Below are positions 3,237 to 20,561 of a DNA stretch of 21,660 nt, piece after piece. How positions within the stretch are numbered: position 1 is the stretch's first letter; the number at the start of each line of letters is the position of its first letter. The notes under the pieces are model-generated. The model searched no databases. It was given only the letters and a program-made list of their open reading frames with translations, and was not told where the DNA came from. Source of the stretch: a virus; the IMG/VR virus record IMGVR_UViG_3300031841_000579, positions 1 through 21,660 of that record, one strand, 5' to 3'. The translations under genes were made by a program, and so were the position numbers.

Positions 3237-6200
3237 TTAACTTTCTGGTAAATAATCTAAATATTCTTGGTCATCTCTATATAACTTTAACATAACTCCT
3301 GTCCATACACCCCAAAAGTCTGGATATTCTGCTATAATCTGCTGTGCTTTATTATACATCCAAATTCTCATAGTTTTAGCTTTAACATTATCAGAACTTA
3401 ACCACCAATCAGGATTTTGTGATGGACTTAATTGTTTAGATATACTTTCCATTTCTTCCCAAAATGGTAACATTTCTGCAAAACCTTGTGCTGCTTCTTG
3501 GTCTTTTAGTATAGGGTTTACACTATATCCTGTATCTGTTTTATTTACCCATATTGATTTCATTTCATCATATTTATCTAATGACGATGATTGTGCAATA
3601 ACACCTTGTTCATCTCTTTGAAAACCAGGTAATTCTTCTATAAGTAAGTTTCTATAAAATCTTTTTAATAATACTTTTTTATTATTAGGTGCATCTAAAT
3701 TATCTACTTGTTCACTATATCTTTTGTATCTTAAAAATCCTATTGTGTCATTAGTATTACGTTGATACAAACTAGGAGACATTTGTTGTCTACTAACATT
3801 TAATTCGTTAAAACTTCTTTCATCATATGGATTATCAAGATTTAAATAATTAGCTGTACCTTTAGGTAATATATCATAAATTTCTTTGTTTTCTTTTTTC
3901 CATCTAGCAGCTGCAGATGTAAATGGTTCTTTAGGTCCAGTTTGTTGTGAACGTGGACTTGTTATCCAAGGATGTTCAAAACCATACAATTGTAAAAATT
4001 CGTTATGTGTAGCAATATAATCGTTATTATTTTTATTTCTTATACGTACATACTCATCATACAAAACAGCAGAACCCCATTGGTTACCATTAGGGTCATC
4101 TAATACATATTCTGGTTTCATACCTGTAGGTCCAAAAAATTGGAATAAAAATTGAAACATAAATAAATCACCAGATGCATATTTAGAATATTCAAGATAC
4201 GCAGTACTTATTTGTTTTTTAGTAATTGTATCTTTAGACCATTGTCCAGGATATAATTTGTCTAAATGAACGTCTAACTTACCAGCATCATATAGTTCAT
4301 TATGTACACCTGCAGCCATACCATATCTAAATACATCAATAGTTGCATTAGCACGCATTTTTTCTATTTCTGATGAACTATCATTTATTTCTTCAAAAGA
4401 TTCTGGTGACTTCATCCATGCACCTAATTTTTTATATGACGAAGATATAGTTACAATGTCAGTTATTTTTTCTGGTGGAGCAAATGTACCAAATAATTTT
4501 TCTCTTACATCATCTGCCCAAGGAGTTTCAGGTAATACTTTGTTAATACCAAAAGCTACCATAGGGTTAGGACCAGGTACAAAACCTTGACCTAATAAGT
4601 TAACTCCTGTTACATAACCTCTAGGTGATATTCCTATACCCTCTGTATCATCACCAAATATAACATCAGTCATAAATCCACCCCAAGGATAAACAAACAT
4701 TTCTTCGTCACTATTACCTGGAGCAGGTGTAAAGAAACCGTCTCCTGATGTTGCACCTAAAGAATCAGCACCACCAAAACCTCTAGTTGTTACTTGTGCT
4801 TTACGTAATACTGTAGGATTTTCTGCTAGTAATTTACCCCAAGTACTAAATACTTCAAACCATACTTCTGCGAATGGAAATATATTTGTTACTTTGTCAG
4901 CTAATGCATGTTTTTGTGTTGTATCATAAAGCAATTGTTTTGTCATAGATAAACCAAAAGCTTTAGATTCAGTATTCATTGTATAATAATCGTCTATTGC
5001 ACCTGAAGGATACAACTTCTTTAAACCTTTTAATTCATCTACAACTGATTTTGGTACAGCTGCATCAATAGCTTCTTTAATAAATTTATTACGTAAACCA
5101 TCACTCATGTATTGAAATTTATTACCAATGTATAACCATCTATTTTGTTTAAAAACAACTGACCTATTTAAATAACCAATAGGTTTTGTCATTAAATGCT
5201 CAAATAAAAAGTCTGTTGCATCATTTAGTGCGTCTAGTTGTCTAACTAATATATTTCCTTCTTGTACATCATCCATAGGTTTTGACAATTTAACATCACC
5301 AATATCTAAATCTAATCCTTCATCTGATACATATTTTTGCAATCTATCAAGTACACCGTTCTTTTTAAAGAATTTAATTGTTTTTTCTGGGTCTTCACTA
5401 AAATCTAAATAATCTTTTCTAGTTGCAGTTGCAGCATTATTTAAATCAAATGTTTCGTCAAACAATCTACCTTCTGCAATAGCGTATCTCAAATTAGCAT
5501 TACCAGTATCTGTGTTTTTTATTTTGTATCTATATTTTTGTGAGTTAGCTAATTTATAATATTCAGTACCTTTTTGTACTTTACCACCTGTTTTAATACG
5601 TATTCTTGCTTCTATTGATTGTAAGTACTGGTCTATAAAATCTTTATCATCTAATATTGGTTTAAAGTCATTACCACCCCAATCATACAATGAACGTCTT
5701 GCAGCAAAACCTTTTTCGCTATAAATCCAATCATTTAACTCTTTAGAACCATATCTAAATTTTGCAACATTACGTGATATTTCGTCATTACGTAACATAA
5801 TAAGTTCATTAAATGTTCCTAATGTATAATCTTTTATAAGTGTATCTGGACCTTTAGATTTTATAATATACTCTAAACCTTTAACATCTCTGTTGTATTT
5901 TGCAGATGTAAGAAAATCAGAACTTAAAAATGTTTTTTGTGCAGCTTGCATAGCTTCTTGTGAAGCTAATAACTCTACACCATCTGTATTTGCTTTGGTA
6001 ATACCAGGTAGTTTTCTTAAACTAAGAAACCAAGGGTTTTTAGGATTATGTGCAGATAGCCATTGTATATATCTAAATGGATGATTAAAAAACCCATCAA
6101 GACCACTAACAGCTATACGTGCTTGTTCTTCTAAAAACACCCTTGTAAAAAATGCAGCTCTTAATAGTACTAATGGTTTAAATACATTTCTTGTGTAGTA

Positions 6201-9026
6201 ATTAGCTAATAATGTTGCAGAGTCATCATTAAGTTGTTTTGTATTAATAATTCCTTTTTCAAATGGATTAACGTCTGTTTGATTAAATTTAAACTTTTTA
6301 TATTGATTAACATCATATGCAAATCCTCTTATACCTGTAAGTGCTTCACCACCAGGTTGTGCCTTAAACACTTTACCCATTGCTCTATTTACAATTCTAT
6401 AATCTAACAAAGGTATTACATTGTCTGACATTTCTGAAAACAACTGTGCAGTTACATGTTGTATATTTTTAGGATTACCGTCTTTAGGGTCAGTTAATTG
6501 TATAATTTCGTTTCTTGAACCAACATTAGGTAAAGTTTCTTTATTTGTTGCAGTAGCATATATTTTTGATTTACGCATACCTGCAAATTGTTTAGCAACA
6601 ATATCAGCTACTATTTCATCATTACCACCACGTTTTTTAATTAACTTTACATCTTCAAGCATTTGATTGTATGTAAAATCTCTAATAGCTTTTTTATCAC
6701 CAAAATCTAATTTTCTAAATTCATTTAATCTTGCAGATGCAGCAGACATATCATAACCAGTAATTTGCATATGACTTGCTAGTTGTTTATATCCTGTTGC
6801 AAAGTTATTAAGTGGTATTCCTAAATAAGGTACAACACCTAATAATTTTCTATAGTAAGGGTTATATGATGAGTTAAAGCTTGAACTAAAACCTAAATAC
6901 TTTTCAAATTCTAATTTGCCATATGTAGGGTCTAATTCATCAATAACTTTTTGTTTTTTAATCATTTCACCAGCAGCTTGTGTAGTGTCAATAATTGTAT
7001 CGTTTTTAGTAACAGGTTTTAACTGTGTAACTTTTCTACCAGGAAATGCATAATCTTTAAGTTGTTTACCTTTTGTACCTACGTAACTTCCAAAACTTCT
7101 ATATGCTGCATTTTCATTACCAACAGTAGATGCAATTCTACCTAATGCTCTTTCTGTTCTAGTACCTTTTTGTTGCAATCTAGTACCTGTTGCAGCAAGG
7201 TTTTGTGAAAGTTTATTAATAGTATTAGAACCTTTAACAGGTAATAAACCACCTGATATATTGTCAAGTGTTTGTAATCTATCAGCACCTACATCAGCTT
7301 TTATTGTATATCCTTGGTCCATCATGTCACCAAACATTTTTTTAATAACTGCAGGGTTAGTTTCTTTTAATATTTCTTCTTGTACTAATGGATGTAACTT
7401 ACCAATAATTGGATTATCAGCTAATGCCTGTGAAACACTTTCATCTGTTTTAGCTAATGCTTCAAAAAAGTTATTCATTACAGGTTGATTAAGTACCTCA
7501 TCTTTTGTTGTTTGAAAAAACTTAGGCACACGACCAAATACTGTATATTCTTTTTTAAGTTTTTTAGCAGCTTTTCTAGCTTGTTTACGATTAGCAACTA
7601 CATCATCAGAATATTTAACTAAATCATTTGTATTGTAATTAACTAATTTATCAAAATTACCTTTACCAGTAACAGCATCTACTTCATCACCAACTGTTTC
7701 TATTATGTCATCAGCAATTGCTCTAGGTGATATTTTTACAGTTTTACCTGTTTTTTTAACAATACCTAGTTCAGTAGCTTCAAATGCTTTGTTAATTCCT
7801 CTAAAACCTTTTTTAACATTTTTAATTCCTTTAACACCTTTACCTGCAATAATTTCAGGAACTATTTGATATGATGCATCAATTACACCAGATAAAGTAT
7901 TAAACGCAACAGAGCCTGGTTGTGCTATTTCTGATGCTTGTACACGACCTGGAGAGTATTCTAATAAAGTATTATTTTCTGCCCAATCAGGTTTGTAATA
8001 ATCTTGTGCAGTTTGACCACTAAAAAAGTATCTTTGTTTTGACCTACCTGCATAAAAATTAATTTTGTTTGGATTATATGCAGATGTGTAATGTATTTCT
8101 CCATCTTTATCAAATTGTTTAATTGGTTCACCAATATTGTTATATATAAACTTTTTAGCTTCTTCTTCTGAATAACCAAATTTTGTAGTTAAATCGTGAA
8201 ACATAGGTGTATTAGTAGCATCTATAGATTCAAGTGTTGCTTTTGTACCTCTATCAAAATTAACAGGTTTACCATTTACAACTTGTCTCCACATATTAGC
8301 TAATAATGGTTCTCCACCTAAATTATGAGCTTCTTGTATCATATCTATGTGTTTTCTTATATCACCTATTAGGTTTGTATCTTTACCAATATCTTCTATT
8401 TCTGTCCAACTAACATCTGTTTGTAACATACTTTGTGCTTGTTCTGGTGTATAACCATCTTGTAATAATTTATCGTAATAACGTATGTCACGTAAATATG
8501 CTTGCGACCTACCTACTTGCATAATTTGTCCAGGCACTAATGCGTTAGCAGCAGATGCTAATACTGACCATTTACCTGATGGTCCAAATGTTTGAAATAG
8601 TGCATCTAATGCAGCAAAAGCCCAAACACCATATTGTACATCTCCTGGTTTAGCACCACCTGGAAACAAACCTGCAGTAAATAAATCACCAACAGACATT
8701 TTCATATTTTTTTCCATATTTTCTGGTTGATACTTTTCGTATAAATCAGTCCACAGTTCAGCTTCTTTTTTAACTTTTAAGTTAACTACTTCATCTTCTA
8801 TTTCTCCTAAAGATAAATAATCAGGGTTTACACCATTAACAGCTAGTGCTACTACAACATCTGTAGGTAAAGCTGTATATTGTTCAGATATTTTTTCTAT
8901 ATTGTTAACAATGTCTTGTTGACCTTGAAAAGCTACTTTATAATTTTTAATTTGATTTTGTGCAACTTTAGTTGCTTTATCTAAATCACGTTCTCTAAAG
9001 TAGTCAGGTATGTAATAACTACTCAT
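3237..9026 (-). CDS. Giant virion-associated protein, 1929 aa (possible inner-core/DNA-ejection protein)
   Basis: This single frame of 5.8 kb encodes 1929 residues, over a quarter of the window. It is largely polar and helical, with basic stretches around residues 400-500 (GVKGIKNVKKGFRG, KQARKAAKKLKKEY) and short hydrophobic segments such as FMFQFLFQFFGP near the C-terminal third. A segment IFPFAEVWFEVFSTWGKLL resembles the Phe-Pro-Phe motifs I recall in very large phage internal proteins; this is recollection, not a search. I see no lysozyme, transglycosylase, protease or polymerase motif. It starts at an ATG overlapping the stop of the 127-aa gene (TAATG). Giant proteins in this position in short-tailed phages are often ejected with the DNA. 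A tape-measure role is an alternative, but the sequence lacks the long heptad or Gly-rich hydrophobic repeats usual there. Confidence 0.85.
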   Translation of the reverse strand: MSSYYIPDYFRERDLDKATKVAQNQIKNYKVAFQGQQDIVNNIEKISEQYTALPTDVVVALAVNGVNPDYLSLGEIEDEVVNLKVKKEAELWTDLYEKYQPENMEKNMKMSVGDLFTAGLFPGGAKPGDVQYGVWAFAALDALFQTFGPSGKWSVLASAANALVPGQIMQVGRSQAYLRDIRYYDKLLQDGYTPEQAQSMLQTDVSWTEIEDIGKDTNLIGDIRKHIDMIQEAHNLGGEPLLANMWRQVVNGKPVNFDRGTKATLESIDATNTPMFHDLTTKFGYSEEEAKKFIYNNIGEPIKQFDKDGEIHYTSAYNPNKINFYAGRSKQRYFFSGQTAQDYYKPDWAENNTLLEYSPGRVQASEIAQPGSVAFNTLSGVIDASYQIVPEIIAGKGVKGIKNVKKGFRGINKAFEATELGIVKKTGKTVKISPRAIADDIIETVGDEVDAVTGKGNFDKLVNYNTNDLVKYSDDVVANRKQARKAAKKLKKEYTVFGRVPKFFQTTKDEVLNQPVMNNFFEALAKTDESVSQALADNPIIGKLHPLVQEEILKETNPAVIKKMFGDMMDQGYTIKADVGADRLQTLDNISGGLLPVKGSNTINKLSQNLAATGTRLQQKGTRTERALGRIASTVGNENAAYRSFGSYVGTKGKQLKDYAFPGRKVTQLKPVTKNDTIIDTTQAAGEMIKKQKVIDELDPTYGKLEFEKYLGFSSSFNSSYNPYYRKLLGVVPYLGIPLNNFATGYKQLASHMQITGYDMSAASARLNEFRKLDFGDKKAIRDFTYNQMLEDVKLIKKRGGNDEIVADIVAKQFAGMRKSKIYATATNKETLPNVGSRNEIIQLTDPKDGNPKNIQHVTAQLFSEMSDNVIPLLDYRIVNRAMGKVFKAQPGGEALTGIRGFAYDVNQYKKFKFNQTDVNPFEKGIINTKQLNDDSATLLANYYTRNVFKPLVLLRAAFFTRVFLEEQARIAVSGLDGFFNHPFRYIQWLSAHNPKNPWFLSLRKLPGITKANTDGVELLASQEAMQAAQKTFLSSDFLTSAKYNRDVKGLEYIIKSKGPDTLIKDYTLGTFNELIMLRNDEISRNVAKFRYGSKELNDWIYSEKGFAARRSLYDWGGNDFKPILDDKDFIDQYLQSIEARIRIKTGGKVQKGTEYYKLANSQKYRYKIKNTDTGNANLRYAIAEGRLFDETFDLNNAATATRKDYLDFSEDPEKTIKFFKKNGVLDRLQKYVSDEGLDLDIGDVKLSKPMDDVQEGNILVRQLDALNDATDFLFEHLMTKPIGYLNRSVVFKQNRWLYIGNKFQYMSDGLRNKFIKEAIDAAVPKSVVDELKGLKKLYPSGAIDDYYTMNTESKAFGLSMTKQLLYDTTQKHALADKVTNIFPFAEVWFEVFSTWGKLLAENPTVLRKAQVTTRGFGGADSLGATSGDGFFTPAPGNSDEEMFVYPWGGFMTDVIFGDDTEGIGISPRGYVTGVNLLGQGFVPGPNPMVAFGINKVLPETPWADDVREKLFGTFAPPEKITDIVTISSSYKKLGAWMKSPESFEEINDSSSEIEKMRANATIDVFRYGMAAGVHNELYDAGKLDVHLDKLYPGQWSKDTITKKQISTAYLEYSKYASGDLFMFQFLFQFFGPTGMKPEYVLDDPNGNQWGSAVLYDEYVRIRNKNNNDYIATHNEFLQLYGFEHPWITSPRSQQTGPKEPFTSAAARWKKENKEIYDILPKGTANYLNLDNPYDERSFNELNVSRQQMSPSLYQRNTNDTIGFLRYKRYSEQVDNLDAPNNKKVLLKRFYRNLLIEELPGFQRDEQGVIAQSSSLDKYDEMKSIWVNKTDTGYSVNPILKDQEAAQGFAEMLPFWEEMESISKQLSPSQNPDWWLSSDNVKAKTMRIWMYNKAQQIIAEYPDFWGVWTGVMLKLYRDDQEYLDYLPES

Positions 9027-13926: not shown

Positions 13927-14184
13927 ATGAATAATACTATTGACTATACAACAGTTATAGACTGTGGCTTATGTCACGAGGAAGTAGCTAAAGAGGATAG
14001 ATTACCTGTGCAAGCACGTTCACGCACTGGTGCTATATTCTATTGGCCTGCATATTTGCATAAAGACTGCATTTATACTCGTGGTACTCGCAGAATTATA
14101 GACTGTCACAAAGACAGTTATACCTACATTGCGAAGGCTAAGGCAGAAGCTGCCAAAGCTGAGCAATTAAAGTTAGGTGTATGA
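13927..14184 (+). CDS. Small putative zinc-binding protein, 85 aa
   Basis: This is the first gene of the plus-strand arm. It begins MNNTIDYTTVIDCGLCHEEV and carries CGLCHEE (Cys13, Cys16, His17) and later HKDC and DCHKD, a spacing that could bind one zinc ion. The C-terminus is an Ala/Lys/Glu-rich helix (YIAKAKAEAAKAEQLK). I chose ATG 13927 because GGAG sits 5 bases upstream. The frame extends back to a TTG at 13882, but that codon lies in the loop of a strong hairpin without a ribosome-binding site. The TGA stop lies within the outer arm of the next intergenic hairpin. Function is unknown; small zinc-binding proteins at the start of phage early regions often act on host machinery, which is only a guess here. 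Confidence 0.78.
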   Translation: MNNTIDYTTVIDCGLCHEEVAKEDRLPVQARSRTGAIFYWPAYLHKDCIYTRGTRRIIDCHKDSYTYIAKAKAEAAKAEQLKLGV

Positions 14185-14240
14185 GTGTATATCTAAGTAT
14201 GTTCTTTATCGGAGAACATACTTATATCTATGACACTCAT
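14181..14240 (+). ncRNA. Intergenic stem-loop 1 with TTATCGG loop
   Basis: The inner stem AAGTATGTTCT (14195-14205) pairs perfectly with AGAACATACTT (14213-14223) around TTATCGG. An outer stem ATGAGTGT (14181-14188) pairs with ACACTCAT (14233-14240). The stop codon of the previous gene is inside the outer arm. No U-tract follows, so it is not a standard terminator; the AAAGGA ribosome-binding site of the next gene follows about 20 bases on. The loop is shared with three other intergenic hairpins. Confidence 0.7.
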
Positions 14241-14278
14241 AGGTATATAAGCTATATAGAAAGGAAATGTGATTACAT

Positions 14279-14572
14279 ATGGCTAAAGAAATGAATCCAG
14301 TTGTCTGTGGTATAACTGGCGAAACTCTAACAGAGTGGAATCAAAGGACATTTGTCCAAAGATATATTGGAGGTAAGTTGCAAACTTTACCTTTGTATCT
14401 TGATATAAATGCAGTCTTAGACTTGCATAGACAATCAGATACATATATCCAAAAGAAAGCACAAGAAAAAGCTTTCGAACAAGCTGAATCTAGCGAATTT
14501 GATATGAGCTTTGATGAAGCTGATGGCGATTCTATGAACGCTGAATATGACAATGAAAATGTCATAGCATAA
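14279..14572 (+). CDS. Unknown small protein, 97 aa
   Basis: The product begins MAKEMNPVVCGITGETLTEW and has a very acidic C-terminal third (SSEFDMSFDEADGDSMNAEYDNENVIA). The first 45 residues include CGITGE and a basic, beta-prone segment (FVQRYIGGKLQTLPLY), so it may be a small folded domain with an acidic tail. Initiation is supported by AGAAAGGAA about 12 bases before the ATG, a slightly long spacing. It stands between two hairpins that share the TTATCGG loop. I recognise no family. Acidic tails are common in phage proteins that mimic DNA or bind basic partners, but nothing here proves that. Confidence 0.72.
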   Translation: MAKEMNPVVCGITGETLTEWNQRTFVQRYIGGKLQTLPLYLDINAVLDLHRQSDTYIQKKAQEKAFEQAESSEFDMSFDEADGDSMNAEYDNENVIA

Positions 14573-14582
14573 TATAATAAGT

Positions 14583-14619
14583 TATATATACTGTCGTTTA
14601 TCGGACGACAGTATATATA
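14583..14619 (+). ncRNA. Intergenic stem-loop 2 with TTATCGG loop
   Basis: A perfect 15-base stem (14583-14597 with 14605-14619) closes on the loop TTATCGG (14598-14604). It begins 10 bases after the previous stop codon and is followed by an A-rich stretch and AGAAGGGA, the ribosome-binding site of the gene at 14644. The stem sequence is unrelated to stem-loop 1 apart from AT-richness, while the loop is identical. The 3' arm also contains part of a TATAAT-like string (14618-14623), so a promoter role is an alternative reading. Confidence 0.7.
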
Positions 14620-14643
14620 TAATTAAAAAAGAAGGGATTTACT

Positions 14644-14862
14644 ATGCAAATCGTTGGCGATAGTTTTGAATTTGAATTAGATACAAAGCTATCAAAATTA
14701 TCTAAAGAAGAATTAGAAAGTATAGTGCAATGGATACTAACTGACTTGCAAAATTGGACAAACAATGGCGCTGTAGCAAATATTACACAACACTGTGCAA
14801 TGCTACATGAAGCAGTTAGTTATCAAATTGACAAAGCATACAAAAAATTGGAGGAAGTATGA
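14644..14862 (+). CDS. Unknown small helical protein, 72 aa
   Basis: This 72-residue acidic protein begins MQIVGDSFEFELDTKLSKLS and is predicted mostly helical, with one longer amphipathic segment (KEELESIVQWILTDLQNW) and a second helix with Cys and His (NITQHCAMLHEAVSYQIDKAY). AGAAGGGA lies 6 bases before the ATG. Its stop overlaps the ATG of the next gene as ATGA, so the two are translationally coupled and their products may act together. No family is recognised and no catalytic motif is visible. Confidence 0.75.
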   Translation: MQIVGDSFEFELDTKLSKLSKEELESIVQWILTDLQNWTNNGAVANITQHCAMLHEAVSYQIDKAYKKLEEV

Positions 14863-15068
14863 CTAATGACGAACAAAATACTATTGAGCTAGTTACATCT
14901 TTGTTGGGAAATATGGAACAAGCTATGCGTGGTTTAACTGTATTTGTAGAAACATCACGCAAAGAAATTGCAACACTTCAAACAGAAGTCAGTGCAATGA
15001 AACAACAAATTAAATATCTTATTGATACTATTCCATTAGAAAGCGAGTGGGATGATGAATCAATTTGA
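14859..15068 (+). CDS. Small coiled-coil protein, 69 aa
   Basis: The start overlaps the end of the previous gene by four bases (ATGA), and GGAGG is 6 bases upstream. The product (MTNDEQNTIELVTSLLGNME...) is almost entirely helical. Residues 15-60 have regularly spaced hydrophobic residues (LLGNMEQAMRGLTVFVETSRK, ATLQTEVSAMKQQIKYLI) that suggest a coiled coil and self-association. The C-terminus is acidic (SEWDDESI). The next gene starts 17 bases before its end. Function is unknown. Confidence 0.75.
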   Translation: MTNDEQNTIELVTSLLGNMEQAMRGLTVFVETSRKEIATLQTEVSAMKQQIKYLIDTIPLESEWDDESI

Positions 15069-15273
15069 TATTTACGAATACACAGATGAAAATCTTAAAA
15101 GAGATGAAAACTGTTTAACTGTAGACTTTTACTTCACAAGTGATGTGAGTAAAGATAGAGCAGTACAAATTGTTGATAACATGGTAAGTGATAATGATGG
15201 TATGCATACCAAATTAGTATCACATAGACCAGCTATATTTGTTAAATCTCCGTTTATCACTGATAGCAACTAA
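15052..15273 (+). CDS. Unknown small protein, 73 aa
   Basis: It overlaps the previous gene by 17 bases and starts with tandem ATGs (15052 and 15055) after GAGTGGG, so either Met may be used. The product (MMNQFDIYEYTDENLKRDEN...) alternates beta-like and helical segments: CLTVDFYFTSD, a helix DRAVQIVDNMVSD, then KLVSHRPAIFVKSPF. This could be a small alpha/beta fold. It ends at the last stop before a long structured gap, so it closes a three-gene coupled cluster. No family is recognised. Confidence 0.72.
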   Translation: MMNQFDIYEYTDENLKRDENCLTVDFYFTSDVSKDRAVQIVDNMVSDNDGMHTKLVSHRPAIFVKSPFITDSN

Positions 15274-15283
15274 ACAATTTATC

Positions 15284-15292
15284 TGCTAAAAT
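15284..15292 (+). promoter_or_regulatory. Candidate extended -10 promoter for the structured leader
   Basis: TGCTAAAAT fits an extended -10 (TGn followed by TAAAAT at 15287-15292). No convincing -35 is present, as is common for extended -10 promoters. A start 7-8 bases on would fall at A15300, exactly the first base of the three-way-junction stem. That exact coincidence supports both the promoter and the RNA structure. Confidence 0.52.
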
Positions 15293-15299
15293 GAAACGC

Positions 15300-15530
15300 A
15301 GCTATCTACATTGTTGTTCCCCTTTACAACTGTCAGGCAACTGACAACCATAATGTAGGTAGCTTGTAGCACATGAGTAGTAACTCAATTTCCGACTTCT
15401 GCTTGTGTGTTACGAGCTATCTATAAAAATACATAATGCCCTGTGTAGCGTACAGATAGCAAGAGTACGAAGGTGTGTAGTTCCGCACTACATACCTTTC
15501 GTTACTCTTTATCGCAGAGCAACGAAAGGA
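15300..15530 (+). ncRNA. Continuous structured leader RNA, candidate RNA switch ahead of the 153-aa gene
   Basis: The gap between genes is filled by adjoining stems. Module 1: 15300-15312 pairs with 15352-15364 (13 bp, one G-U), enclosing GTTGT-TCCCCTTT-ACAAC (15313-15330) and TGTCAG-GCAA-CTGACA (15331-15346, a GNRA tetraloop). Module 2: 15363-15373 pairs with 15406-15416, enclosing TGAGT-AGTA-ACTCA. Module 3: GCTATCT (15416-15422) pairs with AGATAGC (15454-15460). Module 4: 15461-15481 pairs with 15487-15509 with two single-base bulges. The 3' part of module 4 can instead pair with 15516-15529, which holds the ribosome-binding site of the gene at 15535. Almost no bases remain unpaired between modules. 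I know no Rfam family matching it. Confidence 0.68.
15495..15529 (+). ncRNA. Stem-loop 4 (TTATCGC loop) sequestering a ribosome-binding site
   Basis: CCTTTCGTTACTCT (15495-15508) pairs with AGAGCAACGAAAGG (15516-15529) with a single A-C mismatch around the loop TTATCGC. The GAAAGGA ribosome-binding site (15524-15530) is inside the 3' arm, five bases before the ATG at 15535. Formation of this stem should hide the site, while pairing of 15487-15509 with 15461-15481 should free it. The loop differs by one base from those of stem-loops 1 and 2. Confidence 0.68.
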
Positions 15531-15534
15531 AACT

Positions 15535-15996
15535 ATGGAAGTACACGGACATGAAATAACTATTGAGTCCTTGCCTACTAAAAAATATCTTGTAAGAGTC
15601 GCTTACTTACGTAATCAAATGTTTAGTGACCCTACAAACACTGATATTGACGAAAATAATGCAACAGCATTTGAATATACTGTTGACGCAAGTAGTTGTA
15701 GACAAGCAATAGATAAAGCATTAACTATAAACATGGTCGTTCAAGCAGAGACCATGATGAAATGGCCTATGATAATACCAGAAGACATGGCAAACAAAGA
15801 AGCTGTTATGGCATTTGGTGAATTTCTTGAAGAACGTGGATTATTCAGTGCATGGATGACTATAGACCCTACATCAGTACAGTGTACAGCTGTTGATGAC
15901 AAGGAACTACTAGAAACATTGACTGAAAATAATATAATGTCAAAGGCTAAAAATATGCCTAAAGATATAGAAGATTTTCTCAATAGGGAAAAATAA
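15535..15996 (+). CDS. Unknown protein, 153 aa, behind the structured leader
   Basis: The product begins MEVHGHEITIESLPTKKYLV and appears to be alpha/beta: an N-terminal strand-rich part (KYLVRVAYLRNQMF, FEYTVDASSC), a helix (CRQAIDKALTINMVVQAETM), then a Met- and Asp/Glu-rich C-terminal half ending in a helix (KNMPKDIEDFLNREK). No catalytic motif or membrane span is seen. The strong ribosome-binding site GAAAGGA is 4 bases from the ATG but buried in a hairpin, so expression may be controlled by RNA folding. It directly precedes the MoxR-like ATPase gene by 23 bases and is probably co-transcribed with it. A role linked to the ATPase/VWA pair is possible but unproven. Confidence 0.78.
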   Translation: MEVHGHEITIESLPTKKYLVRVAYLRNQMFSDPTNTDIDENNATAFEYTVDASSCRQAIDKALTINMVVQAETMMKWPMIIPEDMANKEAVMAFGEFLEERGLFSAWMTIDPTSVQCTAVDDKELLETLTENNIMSKAKNMPKDIEDFLNREK

Positions 15997-16019
15997 TACA
16001 GATACGAAAGGAGCTAATC

Positions 16020-16754
16020 ATGGCAAAAGATTGCTGGGAATTAGTAGAATCTGTAGTGGGCAATAGCCGTAGAGTATTACTCTATGGTCCACCTGGTACA
16101 GGTAAAACATATGCTGCTGTTAAAACTAAAACGCCAACAGCGTTTAGTAAATCAGCAGGTAAAGAGATAGACAATGTCTATCAAATAACTATGACAGAAG
16201 ACACTGCTAGTGCTAACTTAGAAGGTTTTTACAGACCTAGTAGCACAGGTGCTTTTGAGTGGCATGATGGTATTGCAATACAATCATGGAAGAATGGTGG
16301 TCGTCTCATAATTAATGAGATAGACCATGCATCACCAGATGCTATGACATTCTTGCACGCTATACTTGACGACCAAGATATAGCAATGTTGACACTAAAT
16401 AACGATAAGAAAGAGACTGTTAGACCTTCTGAAGGTTTTCAAGTAGTTGCTACTACTAACAGTCCACCAGAAAGTCTACCTTTAGCGCTTAAAGATAGAT
16501 TTCCTGTCAAAATACACGTGGATACAATACATCCTGATGCTATGAAGGACTTTCCTGAAAAGTGGCATCAAGTTATCAATGACACATCATTGGTAGAAGA
16601 TGCGGAAGATAGAGTATCAATACGTTCATGGCGTGAGTTCTTTGACTTACAAGACAAAGGATTCGATGAACAAACAGCTGCAACGTTAGTATTTTCTGAC
16701 AAAGCAGACGAACTGTTAGATGCTATCACGTTAGCTGCAGCTGATGCAGAGTAA
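16020..16754 (+). CDS. MoxR-like AAA+ ATPase
   Basis: A 244-residue single AAA+ module. Walker A is GPPGTGKT (residues 23-30), Walker B is RLIINEID (95-102), the sensor-1 region is VVATTNSPP (Asn147), and LKDRFPV (Arg160) supplies the likely arginine finger. The segment LEGFYRPSSTGAFEWHDG between the Walker motifs is typical of the MoxR/CobS/dynein-related group, which remodels partner proteins carrying a von Willebrand A domain. CGAAAGGAG precedes the ATG by 5 bases. The stop overlaps the start of the next gene by 11 bases, and that gene encodes the expected VWA partner. Marine phages are known to carry CobS-like genes, but the partner here does not look like an intact cobaltochelatase subunit, so the substrate is unknown. 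Confidence 0.9.
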   Translation: MAKDCWELVESVVGNSRRVLLYGPPGTGKTYAAVKTKTPTAFSKSAGKEIDNVYQITMTEDTASANLEGFYRPSSTGAFEWHDGIAIQSWKNGGRLIINEIDHASPDAMTFLHAILDDQDIAMLTLNNDKKETVRPSEGFQVVATTNSPPESLPLALKDRFPVKIHVDTIHPDAMKDFPEKWHQVINDTSLVEDAEDRVSIRSWREFFDLQDKGFDEQTAATLVFSDKADELLDAITLAAADAE

Positions 16755-18192
16755 AGCATATCCGTATCCAGAGATAGTTACAGGCGATACATGGACTGTT
16801 CATCAGACACCTGACAACAGTCCAGCAGCTAGTACAGATAATCTCAACAAAAATATGCATGTTCCATTAAATAGGAACTGTGAGTTTTGTGGAGTTAATC
16901 ACAGTCGTATGATACGTAGACACGAGTTAGGTCATGTTAAATGGTCACCAAAGACTATGGGCAAACTTAAACCTGGTGTGCGTAAAGAAGCTGTAGAAGT
17001 ACTAGAAGAAATACGTGTAAATTTTTTACTTGCACGTAACAAGTTAGACCTTAACGAACCAACAATGTGCTTGGATAGTATGCAAGTAAGAACTAACGAT
17101 ATGTTACTTCATGCAAGTATATCTAAAATTATATTGTATGGTATGGCAAGTATGTGGCCAGTTGTAGATTATGGTGATGGTATATCTAAATATTATCGTG
17201 GATATAGAGATGAATGGTGTCCAGAATACAAAGCTGTTCAGACATTTATTGATATGTGTTTAGATGATATAAACATTAGTGAAATACGTAAAGAAGAATT
17301 ACGTTTTGCACAAAGTACAATGCACAGGTTCTATAGAAACTTAACTGATAGTTATCACAGTTACGGTATGATTTCATATCGTAAGGTACAAAAGTTAGCT
17401 GCAGATTTGTCACATATTCTAAATGCATTTACTGAACCACCTAAAAAGCATGAGATATATGCTAATCCACAAGATGGATTGTTAGGTGCAGCTGAAGAAA
17501 GTGAAGAAGACGGTACACTTGAAGAACAAGAAGCTGGTGCAGGAGCTAGTAACAATGACCTAGAAAGACGTATGCGTAAAGGTTTGTTAGAACAAATGAG
17601 ATACCATCGTCATGGTGTAGGTACGTGGGGTGATATGGAAATACATAAACCACCATTGACTGTAAATCTAACATCTAGACTTAAGAATGGTAGAGCATAC
17701 AGACCTGCTGATATAGGTTACAATCCTAAATACATTAATAGATATTGTGTGGATAAAAAGATATTCAAACAAAAACAACATGTAATGGGTGGCACAATAC
17801 TTATAGATGCGTCAGGTTCTATGTGCTTTAGTGGTCAAGATATATTAGAAATATTACAGCTGCTTCCTGCAGCAACCATAGCAATGTACAACGGTTCTGG
17901 ATATTATGGTGATTTACGCATAATTGCTAAGAATGGCAGACGTGTTGATGAACAATACATGGATAGACACTCTGGTAAAGGTAATGTTGTAGATGGTCCT
18001 GCATTGGACTGGTTATCAACAATGCCAGCTAGAAGAATCTGGGTATCTGACATGCATGTATTTGGTAGAGGTAATGATACTGGTATAAATCTAGTTAAAT
18101 ATTGCTATGAAATGTGTACAAAACACAGAATTATCAACTTAAAAGATGTTGATGAAGTAAAGGAACATGCATTAAAACTGAATGTAGTATAG
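16744..18192 (+). CDS. Zincin-like (HExxH) plus von Willebrand A domain protein
   Basis: The 482-residue product has two parts. Near the N-terminus RRHELGH (His60, Glu61, His64) is an HExxH zinc-hydrolase motif, followed by VLEEIRVN (residues 86-93), which resembles the LEDxRxE helix that gives the third ligand in CobT-like and other VWA-linked putative metallopeptidases. CEFC (46-49) and His53 could hold a second metal. An acidic linker (~250-262) and then a C-terminal VWA domain follow, with MIDAS motif DASGS (355-359) and a late acidic motif WVSDMHVFG (Asp436). It overlaps the MoxR-like gene by 11 bases, so the pair is coupled. Known MoxR-VWA pairs insert metals or remodel complexes; a phage-encoded protease or chaperone acting on host or virion proteins is my inference. 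Confidence 0.85.
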   Translation: MQSKAYPYPEIVTGDTWTVHQTPDNSPAASTDNLNKNMHVPLNRNCEFCGVNHSRMIRRHELGHVKWSPKTMGKLKPGVRKEAVEVLEEIRVNFLLARNKLDLNEPTMCLDSMQVRTNDMLLHASISKIILYGMASMWPVVDYGDGISKYYRGYRDEWCPEYKAVQTFIDMCLDDINISEIRKEELRFAQSTMHRFYRNLTDSYHSYGMISYRKVQKLAADLSHILNAFTEPPKKHEIYANPQDGLLGAAEESEEDGTLEEQEAGAGASNNDLERRMRKGLLEQMRYHRHGVGTWGDMEIHKPPLTVNLTSRLKNGRAYRPADIGYNPKYINRYCVDKKIFKQKQHVMGGTILIDASGSMCFSGQDILEILQLLPAATIAMYNGSGYYGDLRIIAKNGRRVDEQYMDRHSGKGNVVDGPALDWLSTMPARRIWVSDMHVFGRGNDTGINLVKYCYEMCTKHRIINLKDVDEVKEHALKLNVV

Positions 18193-18193
18193 T
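18188..18193 (+). promoter_or_regulatory. Candidate -10 box for the 18200 structured RNA
   Basis: TATAGT lies at the very end of the VWA gene. Six bases (AATAGG) separate it from A18200, where the first stem of the structured RNA begins. This repeats the arrangement at 15287-15300. No clear -35 is seen, so confidence rests on the matching geometry. Confidence 0.42.
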
Positions 18194-18199
18194 AATAGG

Positions 18200-18448
18200 A
18201 GCAATGCAACGTTGTGAAACGTAGCAAAGTTCCTTTCCTTTGCTTAAGCATTGTTAAAGTTAGTTGAAGTAGAATAGAGTGCAAAGAGAGCTTGCAACAG
18301 GGTGTTTATATTCATCATGTCAACAGTGACCTATAGTGAACACTACTTCAATTAACACTTCATTAGCCTGTACAGCACAAACTCAAGTCTTCGTTCCATT
18401 GGCTGGAACTATGACTTTCGTTTCTGCCTGCCCTGCTAATTCGTGTTA
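18200..18448 (+). ncRNA. Structured noncoding RNA or leader between VWA and HTH genes
   Basis: This 287-base gap has no coding frame of note but is dense in stems. Module 1: AGCAATGC (18200-18207) pairs with GCATTGTT (18248-18255), enclosing ACGTT-GTGA-AACGT (18209-18222, a GNRA tetraloop) and AGCAAAG-TTCCTTTC-CTTTGCT (18223-18244). Module 2: 18259-18272 pairs with 18343-18356 (14 bp, one G-U), enclosing TGCAA-AGAGAGC-TTGCA (18280-18296). Module 3: ATTAGC (18362-18367) pairs with GCTAAT (18435-18440), with TAACAC and GTGTTA just outside, enclosing AAGTC (18385-18389) and GTTCCA (18393-18398) paired with TGGAAC (18404-18409) and GACTT (18413-18417). The next gene has its own promoter-like boxes after this, so the RNA may be free-standing. 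Confidence 0.62.
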
Positions 18449-18453
18449 GGTTC

Positions 18454-18481
18454 TTGTAACATATTTAAATGAATGTATAAT
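18454..18481 (+). promoter_or_regulatory. Candidate promoter of the HTH/phosphoesterase pair, possibly leaderless
   Basis: TTGTAA (18454-18459) and a perfect TATAAT (18476-18481) are 16 bases apart. The TATAAT overlaps the first ATG (18480). A start seven or eight bases on would fall at 18488-18489, where a second in-frame ATG begins. With no ribosome-binding site at either ATG, a leaderless message starting at 18489 is a reasonable reading. Confidence 0.5.
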
Positions 18482-18722
18482 GAACCGTATGAAAGACATA
18501 GAAAAACTTCTGAAAGAAGCAGAACATGGAAAGATTAGTTCTGTTACTGAAAGAATCACACAAGAAGCTATGCCGTTTTGGGAGGGCTGCCTTGAACGGT
18601 TAAAGTCTGGACGCACCATAAAACCATATGTTGTGCATAGACTACTAAGAGAAGAATATAATATAAAAATATCAGAATCAGCTATACGTAATCACTTTAC
18701 GAAAGTCTTAGAAGATGAGTAA
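18480..18722 (+). CDS. Small helix-turn-helix-like DNA-binding protein, 80 aa
   Basis: The product (MNRMKDIEKLLKEAEHGKIS...) is helical. Its C-terminal half (RTIKPYVVHRLLREEYNIKI, then SESAIRNHFTKVLEDE) has the spacing of a helix-turn-helix: helix, turn at YNIKI, recognition helix SESAIRNHF. No ribosome-binding site precedes ATG 18480; the fourth codon, ATG 18489, could be the true start of a leaderless message, giving 77 residues. It overlaps the phosphoesterase gene by 8 bases. The first residues KDIEKLLKEAEHGKI resemble the start of the next protein (KEVDKLIAEAESAKI), hinting at related N-terminal helices that could pair. Function beyond likely DNA binding is unknown. Confidence 0.78.
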   Translation: MNRMKDIEKLLKEAEHGKISSVTERITQEAMPFWEGCLERLKSGRTIKPYVVHRLLREEYNIKISESAIRNHFTKVLEDE

Positions 18723-19770
18723 AGAAGTTGATAAGTTAATAGCTGAAGCAGAATCTGCAAAGATACAAGAATTAAAAGCTGATAATTTACGTTTGCTTAA
18801 AGCATTAGATAAAGCTAAAAATAAAAAAGCTGATTTGATTGAAGCAATGTATGAAGCTGTACGTATGAATGTATCTACTTGGCCTAAAGCTAAGATTCCT
18901 AAACCTGCTTTAAGTAAAGCAAATAAAAATGAGGAAACTGCAGTAGCAATACTATCTGATATACAGTTAGCTAAAGTAACACCTGATTATGATACAAAAG
19001 TAGCTGAGAAAAGAGTCGAAGCATACGCACATAAGATAGTTGAACTAACAAATCTGCAACGCAATGCACACCCAGTAAACAAGTGTGCTGTATTAGTTGC
19101 AGGTGATATAGTCGAAGGAGAACTTATATTTCCTGGTCAATCACATCTTATAGATGCAAGTTTGTATAGTCAGGTAACTATTGATGGACCTAGAATACTA
19201 ACTAAGTTCTTTGATATATTGTTAGCTAACTTTAAAGAAGTTGATGTTACATGGGTAATAGGTAACCACGGAAGCCTAGGTGGACGTGCAAGAAAAGACT
19301 ATCACCCAGACAGTAACAGCGACAGAATGCTAGGAAAGATAATGCAAATGATATATGAAACAGAAAAACGTATAAGTTTTCATGTACCAGATAGCACAAC
19401 AGAAGACCATTGGTATGCAATAGCAGACCTTGGTAAAGACTGTAAGTTCTTTGTATGGCATGGTGATAATGTAAGAGGACACAGTGGATTTCCCTGGTAT
19501 GGCTTTGGTAAAAAGCTATTAGGATGGAAAGCATTAGCAAGTCGTGGTTTAATGCCTGATTTTGACTATGCAATAGCTGGACACTTTCATACACCAACAA
19601 CAATGTACGTAAATGACGTACGATTATGGGTAAATGGCAGCACAGAAAGCTATAATAGTTATGCTATGGAACAGTTAGCAAGCATGGGTAGACCTTGTCA
19701 ATGGCTATTATTTGCTAAACCTAACCATGGAGTTACTGCTGAATACCTTGTAAAACTGGATAAAGTGTAG
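18715..19770 (+). CDS. Calcineurin-like metallophosphoesterase
   Basis: The 351-residue product has a coiled-coil-like N-terminus (~1-50) and then the dimetal phosphoesterase motifs in order: SDIQLAK (Asp82), AGDIVEG (Asp131), IGNHGS (Asn184, His185), WHGDN (His249) and AGHFHT (His290, His292). The first motif normally reads D-x-H; here the His is replaced by Gln84, which may alter one metal site. Such enzymes hydrolyse phosphodiesters, from nucleic acids to cyclic nucleotides. A nuclease role in phage DNA processing is likely by context, with a DNA-binding-like gene overlapping upstream and an annealing protein downstream, but the substrate cannot be read from sequence. ATG 18715 overlaps the previous gene by 8 bases. 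Confidence 0.88.
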   Translation: MSKEVDKLIAEAESAKIQELKADNLRLLKALDKAKNKKADLIEAMYEAVRMNVSTWPKAKIPKPALSKANKNEETAVAILSDIQLAKVTPDYDTKVAEKRVEAYAHKIVELTNLQRNAHPVNKCAVLVAGDIVEGELIFPGQSHLIDASLYSQVTIDGPRILTKFFDILLANFKEVDVTWVIGNHGSLGGRARKDYHPDSNSDRMLGKIMQMIYETEKRISFHVPDSTTEDHWYAIADLGKDCKFFVWHGDNVRGHSGFPWYGFGKKLLGWKALASRGLMPDFDYAIAGHFHTPTTMYVNDVRLWVNGSTESYNSYAMEQLASMGRPCQWLLFAKPNHGVTAEYLVKLDKV

Positions 19771-19777
19771 GTATACT
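19748..19777 (+). promoter_or_regulatory. Candidate promoter of the 51-aa gene
   Basis: TTGTAA (19748-19753) and TATACT (19772-19777) are 18 bases apart, and the same TTGTAA hexamer is used at 18454. The ATG at 19787 is 10 bases after the -10 box, so the message would have little or no leader. The -10 is embedded in the palindrome TATACTATATATAGT, which would suit repression by a bound protein. Confidence 0.45.
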
Positions 19778-19786
19778 ATATATAGT
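19772..19786. promoter_or_regulatory. Palindromic operator-like site, copy 2
   Basis: This is identical over 15 bases to the site at 13584-13598 in the divergent region. It covers the -10 box and ends immediately before the ATG at 19787, a natural position for a repressor or activator. Confidence 0.4.
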
Positions 19787-19942
19787 ATGTTAAATACAAC
19801 AAAAGATTCTGTTAGTAGAGTCGCCATAGAATATAATGGATTAGGTTCACAACCTTATTTTGTTATAGATGTTGAGGGTGAAATTAAATTTATACCCATA
19901 AAACGTGGTGTTACTAGACTAACAGATATAATAGATAATTAA
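19787..19942 (+). CDS. Small protein, 51 aa, after the phosphoesterase
   Basis: A 51-codon frame occupies the gap before stem-loop 3. It begins MLNTTKDSVSRVAIEYNGLG and continues with a beta-like pattern (PYFVIDVEGEIKFIPIKRG), ending in RLTDIIDN. No ribosome-binding site is present, but a -10-like TATACT lies 10 bases upstream, so it may be translated from a near-leaderless message. The hairpin starts directly after its TAA, as with the other loop-conserved hairpins that follow stop codons. Good amino-acid periodicity and exact fit favour a real gene; no family is recognised. Confidence 0.62.
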   Translation: MLNTTKDSVSRVAIEYNGLGSQPYFVIDVEGEIKFIPIKRGVTRLTDIIDN

Positions 19943-19983
19943 TTTATCTATTGTACGTCTTAACGGAACGTACAATAGATAAA
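19943..19983 (+). ncRNA. Intergenic stem-loop 3 with TTAACGG loop
   Basis: A perfect 16-base stem (19943-19958 with 19968-19983) closes on CTTAACGGA. It begins at the base after the stop codon of the 51-aa gene and is followed by an A-rich run and GAAAGGA, the ribosome-binding site of the Rad52-like gene at 20001. No U-tract follows. The stem is unrelated in sequence to the other hairpins, while the loop core matches TTAWCGGA. Confidence 0.7.
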
Positions 19984-20000: not shown

Positions 20001-20561
20001 ATGACTAATAACGTTGATTTGCTATCTCCTTTTCCACAGGAGTTAGTTCGTAAAGCACCTGCTGGAAAGTTTGGTGATTATGTACCACATGCTAATTACG
20101 TAGAAAGATTACGTGATAGTGGTGTTAAATATTCATGGGTATGTGAACCTGTGTATGGTACATACAATGGAGAAAAGCGTATTGTAGGTGCTAAAGGTAC
20201 TATTAGTATCGATGGTATGGGTAGTTACGATGGATTTGGTGACGTTGATACGTTTAAACTATCAAGTCCTAAGTTTAATGACGGCAGCAATCTAAAAGAT
20301 GCAGAGTCAGATGCTTTTAAACGTGCTTGTATGCGATTTGGTCTTGGTGTAGAACTATGGTCAGGTAGTAAACAGTCAGAAGAAGAAGCTACATCTGCTG
20401 AGCCTGAAGATAGAATTGAAGTAACTAAGGTAGATATGCGTAAGAAAGAAAATAAACCTACTAAAGAAGATATTGAACGCATGAATGCCATTATGGATAG
20501 CATTGTTAGTGAAGGTGTTACTGTAGATACAGAAGAACCTGTAGAAGAACCACCGTTCTAA
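20001..20561 (+). CDS. Rad52-like single-strand annealing protein
   Basis: The 186-residue product fits the Rad52/Sak group of phage annealing proteins, which coat single-stranded DNA and pair complementary strands during recombination and replication. Key signs are YVPHANYVERLRD, a beta region with SWVCEPVYG and GAKGTISIDGMG, and near residue 100 the signature LKDAESDAFKRACMRFGLG, the most typical segment of the family. The C-terminal ~70 residues are charged and end in an acidic tail (EEPVEEPPF), as in proteins that contact single-strand-binding partners. GAAAGGA lies 6 bases before the ATG, behind stem-loop 3. The TAA overlaps the start of the zinc-ribbon gene (TAATG), a pairing I recall from actinophage-like genomes. 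Confidence 0.85.
   Translation: MTNNVDLLSPFPQELVRKAPAGKFGDYVPHANYVERLRDSGVKYSWVCEPVYGTYNGEKRIVGAKGTISIDGMGSYDGFGDVDTFKLSSPKFNDGSNLKDAESDAFKRACMRFGLGVELWSGSKQSEEEATSAEPEDRIEVTKVDMRKKENKPTKEDIERMNAIMDSIVSEGVTVDTEEPVEEPPF

Follow-up and report, generated by a model that had tools for sequence, protein, structure and literature searches.

Variable-stem hairpins with related loops in the leaders of early genes of an uncultured phage group

The stretch of DNA analysed here (the window, 33.6% GC) comprises all 21,660 bases of IMG/VR record IMGVR_UViG_3300031841_000579, an incomplete phage genome whose other half is missing. Terminase, portal and other virion genes lie on the − strand of its left part, and the + strand of its right part holds an early gene cluster encoding an ATPase, a 482-amino-acid (aa) protein, a metallophosphoesterase/exonuclease and a single-strand annealing protein. 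Four + strand hairpins, H1 to H4, stand before early genes. H1 (14191-14227) carries the loop TTATCGG (14206-14212) on a stem with one mismatch and a perfect 12-bp core, and precedes a 97-aa, Cys-containing gene of the VCGITGE family (14279-14572, + strand) that is present in most relatives and had no match in Pfam or PHROG. H2 (14583-14619) displays the same loop, TTATCGG (14598-14604), on a perfect 15-bp stem before a 72-aa gene (14644-14862, + strand) whose family is also found in most relatives. H3 (15495-15529), with loop TTATCGC (15509-15515) and a 14-bp stem containing one mismatch, precedes a 153-aa gene (15535-15996, + strand) whose product has a confident structural model and no known fold. 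H4 (19943-19983), with loop CTTAACGGA (19959-19967) and a perfect 16-bp stem, precedes the annealing protein gene (20001-20561, + strand; PHROG 3290, Rad52-like).

All four hairpins lie where a first-pass annotation of the sequence had placed them, and the distances that it gave agree with ours if H1 is taken slightly longer: H1, H2, H3 and H4 begin about 6, 10, 221 and 0 nt after the preceding stop and end 51, 24, 5 and 17 nt before the next start codon. They are stronger than shuffled sequence, with RNA folding z-scores of −6.0, −5.5, −4.3 and −6.2, respectively. Three window hairpins reached a stem score of ≥12, against a mean of 0.28 and a maximum of 2 in 60 dinucleotide shuffles, and two reached ≥14, against a mean of 0.03 in the same shuffles. 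Nor is the loop string equally common outside hairpins: four of the five + strand occurrences of TTAWCGS lie in H1-H4, while the fifth, like both − strand occurrences, is stemless.

Roughly 150 related viral-metagenome contigs were reached through the ATPase and the annealing protein, and two close contigs through the 153-aa protein; no isolated phage matched the region in a DNA search, and a search with the annealing protein likewise found none. We compared loop words, with no motif set in advance, among strong hairpins of the window and these relatives. Those followed by a Shine-Dalgarno sequence and a start codon were enriched for TTACG (12 versus 1.0 expected), TTATG (10 versus 1.4) and TCCTT (11 versus 1.2), with TCCT/CTTA-type words also standing out; the 482 other hairpins mainly showed the reverse complements of these words. 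The shared loop of the first-pass annotation was recovered without a preset motif, as part of a family broader than TTATCGG: across the catalogue of the window and its relatives, the loop core is a degenerate YYUWYG. As RNA, the window loops read UUAUCGG, UUAUCGC and CUUAACGGA, and loop types in the family include UUAUCGG, CCUUACGG and CUUAUG, most loops being 7-11 nt long and lacking a recognised ultra-stable tetraloop. With 49 hairpins anchored at the YG, a pyrimidine stood four and three positions before the G-preceding base in 47/49 and 49/49, respectively; this anchoring relies on the motif filter, the k-mer comparison being the unbiased one. Relatives also carry a second leader hairpin before early genes, with a CCCCT(T) loop and varying stems (for example TAGTACCTATCA[TCCCCTT]TGGTAGGTACTA; L180:2716, L034:1581, L054:2620, L049:2664 and similar sites).

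Comparison of orthologous gaps in related marine phage contigs revealed that the stems change freely while remaining paired. Distinct hairpins numbered 11 before the 72-aa gene (H2), 9 before the annealing protein gene (H4), 8 before small Cys-containing genes (H1 type) and 7 before the 153-aa gene (H3), the H2 and H4 gaps holding orthologous hairpins with other stems in 10 and 8 more relatives; hairpins of relatives are not independent events. Over the inner nine pairs, a hairpin's own arms were 95-99% paired in the four gaps, versus 44-59% when arms of different phages were combined, and both-sided changes were found at 9/9 tested pairs in each gap, so that homologous gaps have kept paired stems in spite of such changes. 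Among 13 hairpins of equal length, both sides varied at 11/11 pairs, with a covariation score of 1.02 compared to 0.24 in shuffles and ≤0.20 in slid controls. A covariance model built from 13 hairpins (the ungapped set only, MAFFT having shifted some hairpins by one base) gave 19 matches up to E = 1 when both strands of 886 kb were searched. Every match lay on the coding strand and agreed with catalogued leader hairpins or their orthologs, with no evident false match, and H1 was recovered though outside the training set; the further copies that a recognised RNA element should have in related phages are thus present. Two metagenome-assembled genomes (MAGs) that hold a relative gave no match, which is weak evidence on host genomes. 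In many relatives the H1-type gap is occupied by another palindrome, TGATATATAT..ATATATATCA, some 30 nt upstream of the start codon (G010:17475, G016/L053:6108, L061:6346 and similar sites).

That selection acts on these hairpins at the RNA level is, on these sequence patterns, near certain. An AT-rich genome might produce such stems by chance, or mobile repeats might have been copied among its gaps; the stems are indeed AT-rich, and some 5′ arms have short words such as CTGTCGT in common. The shuffle controls, the covariation and the clean covariance search speak against this explanation, as does the lack of relation between the stems of copies within one genome (cross-pairing 0.41-0.58), and we give it next to no credence.

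The position of the hairpins follows the downstream gene. From hairpin end to start codon, the median distance was 17 nt for motif hairpins versus 34 nt for equally strong other hairpins before genes, and 58% of motif hairpins versus 20% of the others ended 10-20 nt from the start codon (Kolmogorov-Smirnov p = 1e-4). The hairpin lay upstream of the Shine-Dalgarno sequence at a median of 8 nt. The distance to the upstream stop, by contrast, ranged from 0 to about 290 nt, in automatic gene calls that miss some short upstream genes. With a fixed distance to the start codon and a variable one to the preceding stop, the element goes with the gene that follows it. This bears on transcriptional explanations, in which RNA polymerase would read the hairpins as pause or antitermination (put-like) elements, or the hairpins would serve an actinobacterial host as weak terminators. 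They do lie between the genes of a single long early transcription unit, and a simple scan calls the opposite strand of H2 and H4 terminator-like. However, each gene has an element of its own at a set distance from the start codon, whereas antitermination as a rule relies on one or two promoter-proximal sites, and a U-tract is lacking on the coding strand, where the 8 nt after the stem average 2.3 T and 3.8 A. No U-tract follows any of H1-H4 on that strand, in keeping with the first-pass annotation, and the intrinsic terminator reading was rejected on this test. A role in transcription strikes us as improbable.

The leader of the 153-aa gene departs from the claim that every hairpin stands ahead of a ribosome-binding site, in that H3 takes up the Shine-Dalgarno sequence itself in its 3′ arm and a competing hairpin spans 15461-15509. 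In this competing fold, a decoy strand, AAGAGTACGAAGGTGTGTAGT (strand 1, 15461-15481, + strand), mimics the H3 3′ arm and can pair with strand 2 (15487-15509, + strand), whose partner is the decoy in the on state and the H3 3′ arm in the off state. In minimum-energy predictions at 37 °C, which leave tertiary contacts and the ribosome out of account, the probability that the Shine-Dalgarno is free was 0.00 for H3 folded alone and 0.87 with 50 nt of natural upstream sequence, because 15461-15481 pairs with 15487-15509; shuffled upstream sequences gave a mean of 0.01, and 0/200 were as high. The contrast between natural and shuffled upstream sequence recurred in the relatives L004 (0.81), L019 (0.80), G019 (0.99), L015 (0.78) and G001 (0.85, with 1/200 shuffles as high), and, less sharply, in L009 (0.58, 8/200). 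Among the seven H3 leaders with the decoy fold, that of G019 is unrelated in sequence, and H3 covers the Shine-Dalgarno with different stems in the window, L019 and G019. Loop variants among these leaders are TTATCGC, TTACTGC, CTTTACGCA, TTGTCGC, CTGTCGC and CTGTGGC, the loop departing from the YYUWYG core in L004 and L009. On these predicted folds, H3 should be a two-state Shine-Dalgarno switch with an alternative fold. Strand 1 is transcribed first, so the leader should initially adopt the Shine-Dalgarno-free fold and reach the buried one, with its loop displayed, only given time or assistance; this is the layout expected of an operator that a loop-binding repressor traps.

Two further features of this leader were observed. 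In L019 (5420-5484) and G001 (L161:5280-5350), the decoy hairpin includes an additional, in-frame start upstream that has a Shine-Dalgarno of its own, and in this lineage translation would run through the H3 hairpin, giving MHSFRYSLSQSNERN, ahead of the usual start. Farther upstream of the 153-aa gene, the long noncoding stretch at 15280-15460 contains a large stem, GTAGCTTGTAG..CACATGAG / CTTGTGTGTTACAAGCTAC, which recurs with changed sequence at L028:4332, L057:4116 and L005:1250 and looks like a separate structured RNA.

Is the loop read by something? Across different gaps, loop similarity was 0.32 within a genome versus 0.11 between genomes, and 0.18 for the same gap in different genomes; in 500 shuffles of the genome labels the observed excess was never reached (p about 0.002). 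Stems showed the opposite pattern, with similarity highest within the same gap. Close relatives were counted as different genomes in this comparison, which works against the result, and shared ancestry of the hairpins within one genome could add to the excess. Because loops track the genome, a trans-acting reader is made likelier, and the simplest cause that these sequences suggest is a trans-acting factor differing between phages. The first-pass annotation had argued for an RNA recognised by something, as opposed to a DNA site or simple terminator; the covariation, model search, loop enrichment and missing U-tract bear out selection on the RNA, while recognition has become only likelier. A reader would be superfluous if the hairpins were structural insulators, extra-stable folds that shield the ribosome-binding site from upstream mispairing and keep their loops for folding alone, in the manner of UUCG. 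Their ends just upstream of the Shine-Dalgarno, the C(UUCG)G or C(UACG)G loops of some relatives and the YG at the loop end, as in UNCG loops, would suit such a role. Set against this, most loops, at 7-11 nt, contain no recognised ultra-stable tetraloop, they cluster by genome and not by structure, and H3 does the opposite of insulating; we regard insulation as unlikely.

The reader itself was looked for and not found. The 153-aa protein, whose gene has the tightest putative operator and which was modelled with a pLDDT of 85, occurs in nearly all relatives and has long branches in phages with a hairpin at its own gap. On its tree these own-gap hairpins are clustered, needing 3 changes versus 10.1 in shuffles, a pattern that common descent alone could explain. 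By position only, it is a candidate autoregulator. Most other members of its family carry a DSHxDK signature, which is absent from the long-branch members with an own-gap hairpin. A comparison of gene content between hairpin-rich and hairpin-poor genomes singled out no single gene. A small Cys-rich family (13927-14184 in the window; 6 with, 0 without) was considered as the reader and rejected, being missing from other hairpin-rich genomes. A CsrA/RsmA reading was likewise set aside, as no window loop contains ANGGA, and the H3 loop and most loops of relatives lack any GGA. CCGATAA, the sequence that an antisense kissing partner would carry, is absent from the window outside the hairpins' own complement, half of the genome being missing.

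The first-pass annotation had named an RNA-binding protein, an RNase processing site or an mRNA stabiliser as possible readers. Among such readings, the fixed start-codon distance and the Shine-Dalgarno switch at H3 favour translational control. In the processing or stability alternative, the early polycistronic transcript would be cut near the hairpins by a host or loop-reading nuclease, and the hairpin would protect the downstream 5′ end or the upstream 3′ end. It accords with the intercistronic place of stable, U-tract-free stems in a run of early genes, and a 5′ CUUCGG hairpin has been proposed to stabilise T4 gene 32 mRNA at its leader (PMC8948821). Yet position is tied to the next start codon and not to the previous stop, and stabilisation needs neither a buried Shine-Dalgarno nor the conserved anti-sequestering decoy of H3. 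A phage RNase III (PF00636) matched in 0/10 relatives, with control searches positive and the window's own genome half missing, though the host enzyme could serve. We hold this alternative to be possible and rather doubtful.

From these patterns we infer a function that has, in our judgement, an even chance of being correct: the hairpins would be RNA leader elements of an early operon that act as translational operators and are bound by a phage or host factor. The stem would need only to pair, and the loop with its YYUWYG core would be the recognised part, at a selected set of early genes whose ribosome-binding site the hairpin either covers or borders on the 5′ side. Binding of the loop by a factor, probably one that the phage encodes and that diverges from lineage to lineage, would hinder 30S binding, and several early genes would thereby be tuned together. 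At H3, pairing of strand 2 with the decoy would leave the site free, whereas pairing with the Shine-Dalgarno arm would bury it and display the loop, so that a factor bound to the loop would keep the leader switched off. We likewise infer the reader, its repressive effect and the working of H1, H2 and H4 in the manner of H3. A narrower version, which we advance tentatively, is that a phage-encoded regulator reads a lineage-specific loop code while stems drift, with one operator, perhaps the regulator's own (that of the 153-aa gene), embedded in the decoy Shine-Dalgarno switch.

Several observations weigh against translational operators. At H1, H2 and H4 the Shine-Dalgarno stays free, and only a bound factor could repress there; the 45-59 nt between some H1-type hairpins and the start codon are more than simple blocking would allow. 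In many relatives the motif is missing from one or all of these gaps, which contain other hairpins or none, and some hairpins in relatives' gaps carry other loops, such as GAGCGTGGTG in G001. No RNA-binding family was found among the window's searched early proteins, and no fold in PDB or among viral models matched the 153-aa protein.

The host of this phage is a guess, marine and actinobacterial, given that relatives lie within one actinobacterial and one gammaproteobacterial MAG and that the terminase is nearest to those of Streptomyces phages at about 26%, only distant actinophages being found. Elsewhere in the window, 3237-9026 encodes a 1929-aa protein that lies between two virion-side genes, is kept in relatives and has no annotation here. 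The interval that separates the 482-aa gene from the early gene after it (18193-18480, about 290 nt) is gene-free and contains strong pairing (arms 18362-18398/18404-18440).

If translational control by a loop-reading factor is right, an abundant uncultured marine phage group has a recurrent post-transcriptional signal, recognisable from sequence alone, and tunes an early operon gene by gene without promoters. Its loops would change between lineages and in step within each genome, a rare and useful kind of variation in an RNA-protein contact, by which reader and loop could be matched through co-variation, yielding new orthogonal hairpin-binding pairs. The H3 leader would be a compact natural two-state translation switch, predicted in several independent sequence versions.

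The nearest known kind are the intercistronic CUUCGG hairpins of T4. Such hairpins, mostly intergenic, occur in many phages, T4 above all (Tuerk et al. 1988 as described in PMC8948821). As here, one genome has many hairpins whose stems differ and whose loop is shared, most of them between genes and some before a gene, and the window does contain several intergenic hairpins of that description. Their loop, however, is the ultra-stable C(UUCG)G tetraloop, whereas ours is a 6-11 nt loop with a YYUWYG core that changes between phages; none of the window loops (TTATCGG, TTATCGG, TTATCGC, CTTAACGGA) is C(UUCG)G, and CTTCG occurs in few relatives only. Unlike the T4 hairpins, those described here lie about 17 nt before start codons, with H3 part of a Shine-Dalgarno switch. 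Rfam gave no match above its gathering score and, at relaxed thresholds, two chance-level matches (E 0.6-0.7), and the literature searched, which did not extend to subscription papers, held no description of such elements.

A second likeness is to phage translational operators, hairpins that overlap or adjoin a ribosome-binding site; ours do so, with a median of 17 nt to the start codon and the Shine-Dalgarno within H3. The gp43 operator hairpins of T4 and RB69 have the loop and top bases in common (PMC3014915). Like our hairpins, they overlap the ribosome-binding site or immediately precede it, their loop bases matter and their stems may vary. The gp43 operators each serve one gene through a known protein, while here a putative reader would serve several early genes of one phage. 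The same difference separates our family from the coat protein operators of MS2 and Qbeta, which are also phage translational operator hairpins. Repeated inverted repeats shortly upstream of start codons also occur in actinophages, as the extended start-associated sequences (ESAS) of cluster K mycobacteriophages and other palindromes; in those the arms are conserved in sequence, whereas the present hairpins keep the loop and vary the arms. Finally, the leaders of T4 gene e and mobE bury the ribosome-binding site in a hairpin (PMC3014915), a sequestered Shine-Dalgarno to which H3 adds a conserved loop and a decoy strand. Overall, the family resembles a blend of CUUCGG hairpins, gp43-type operators and Shine-Dalgarno-burying leaders.

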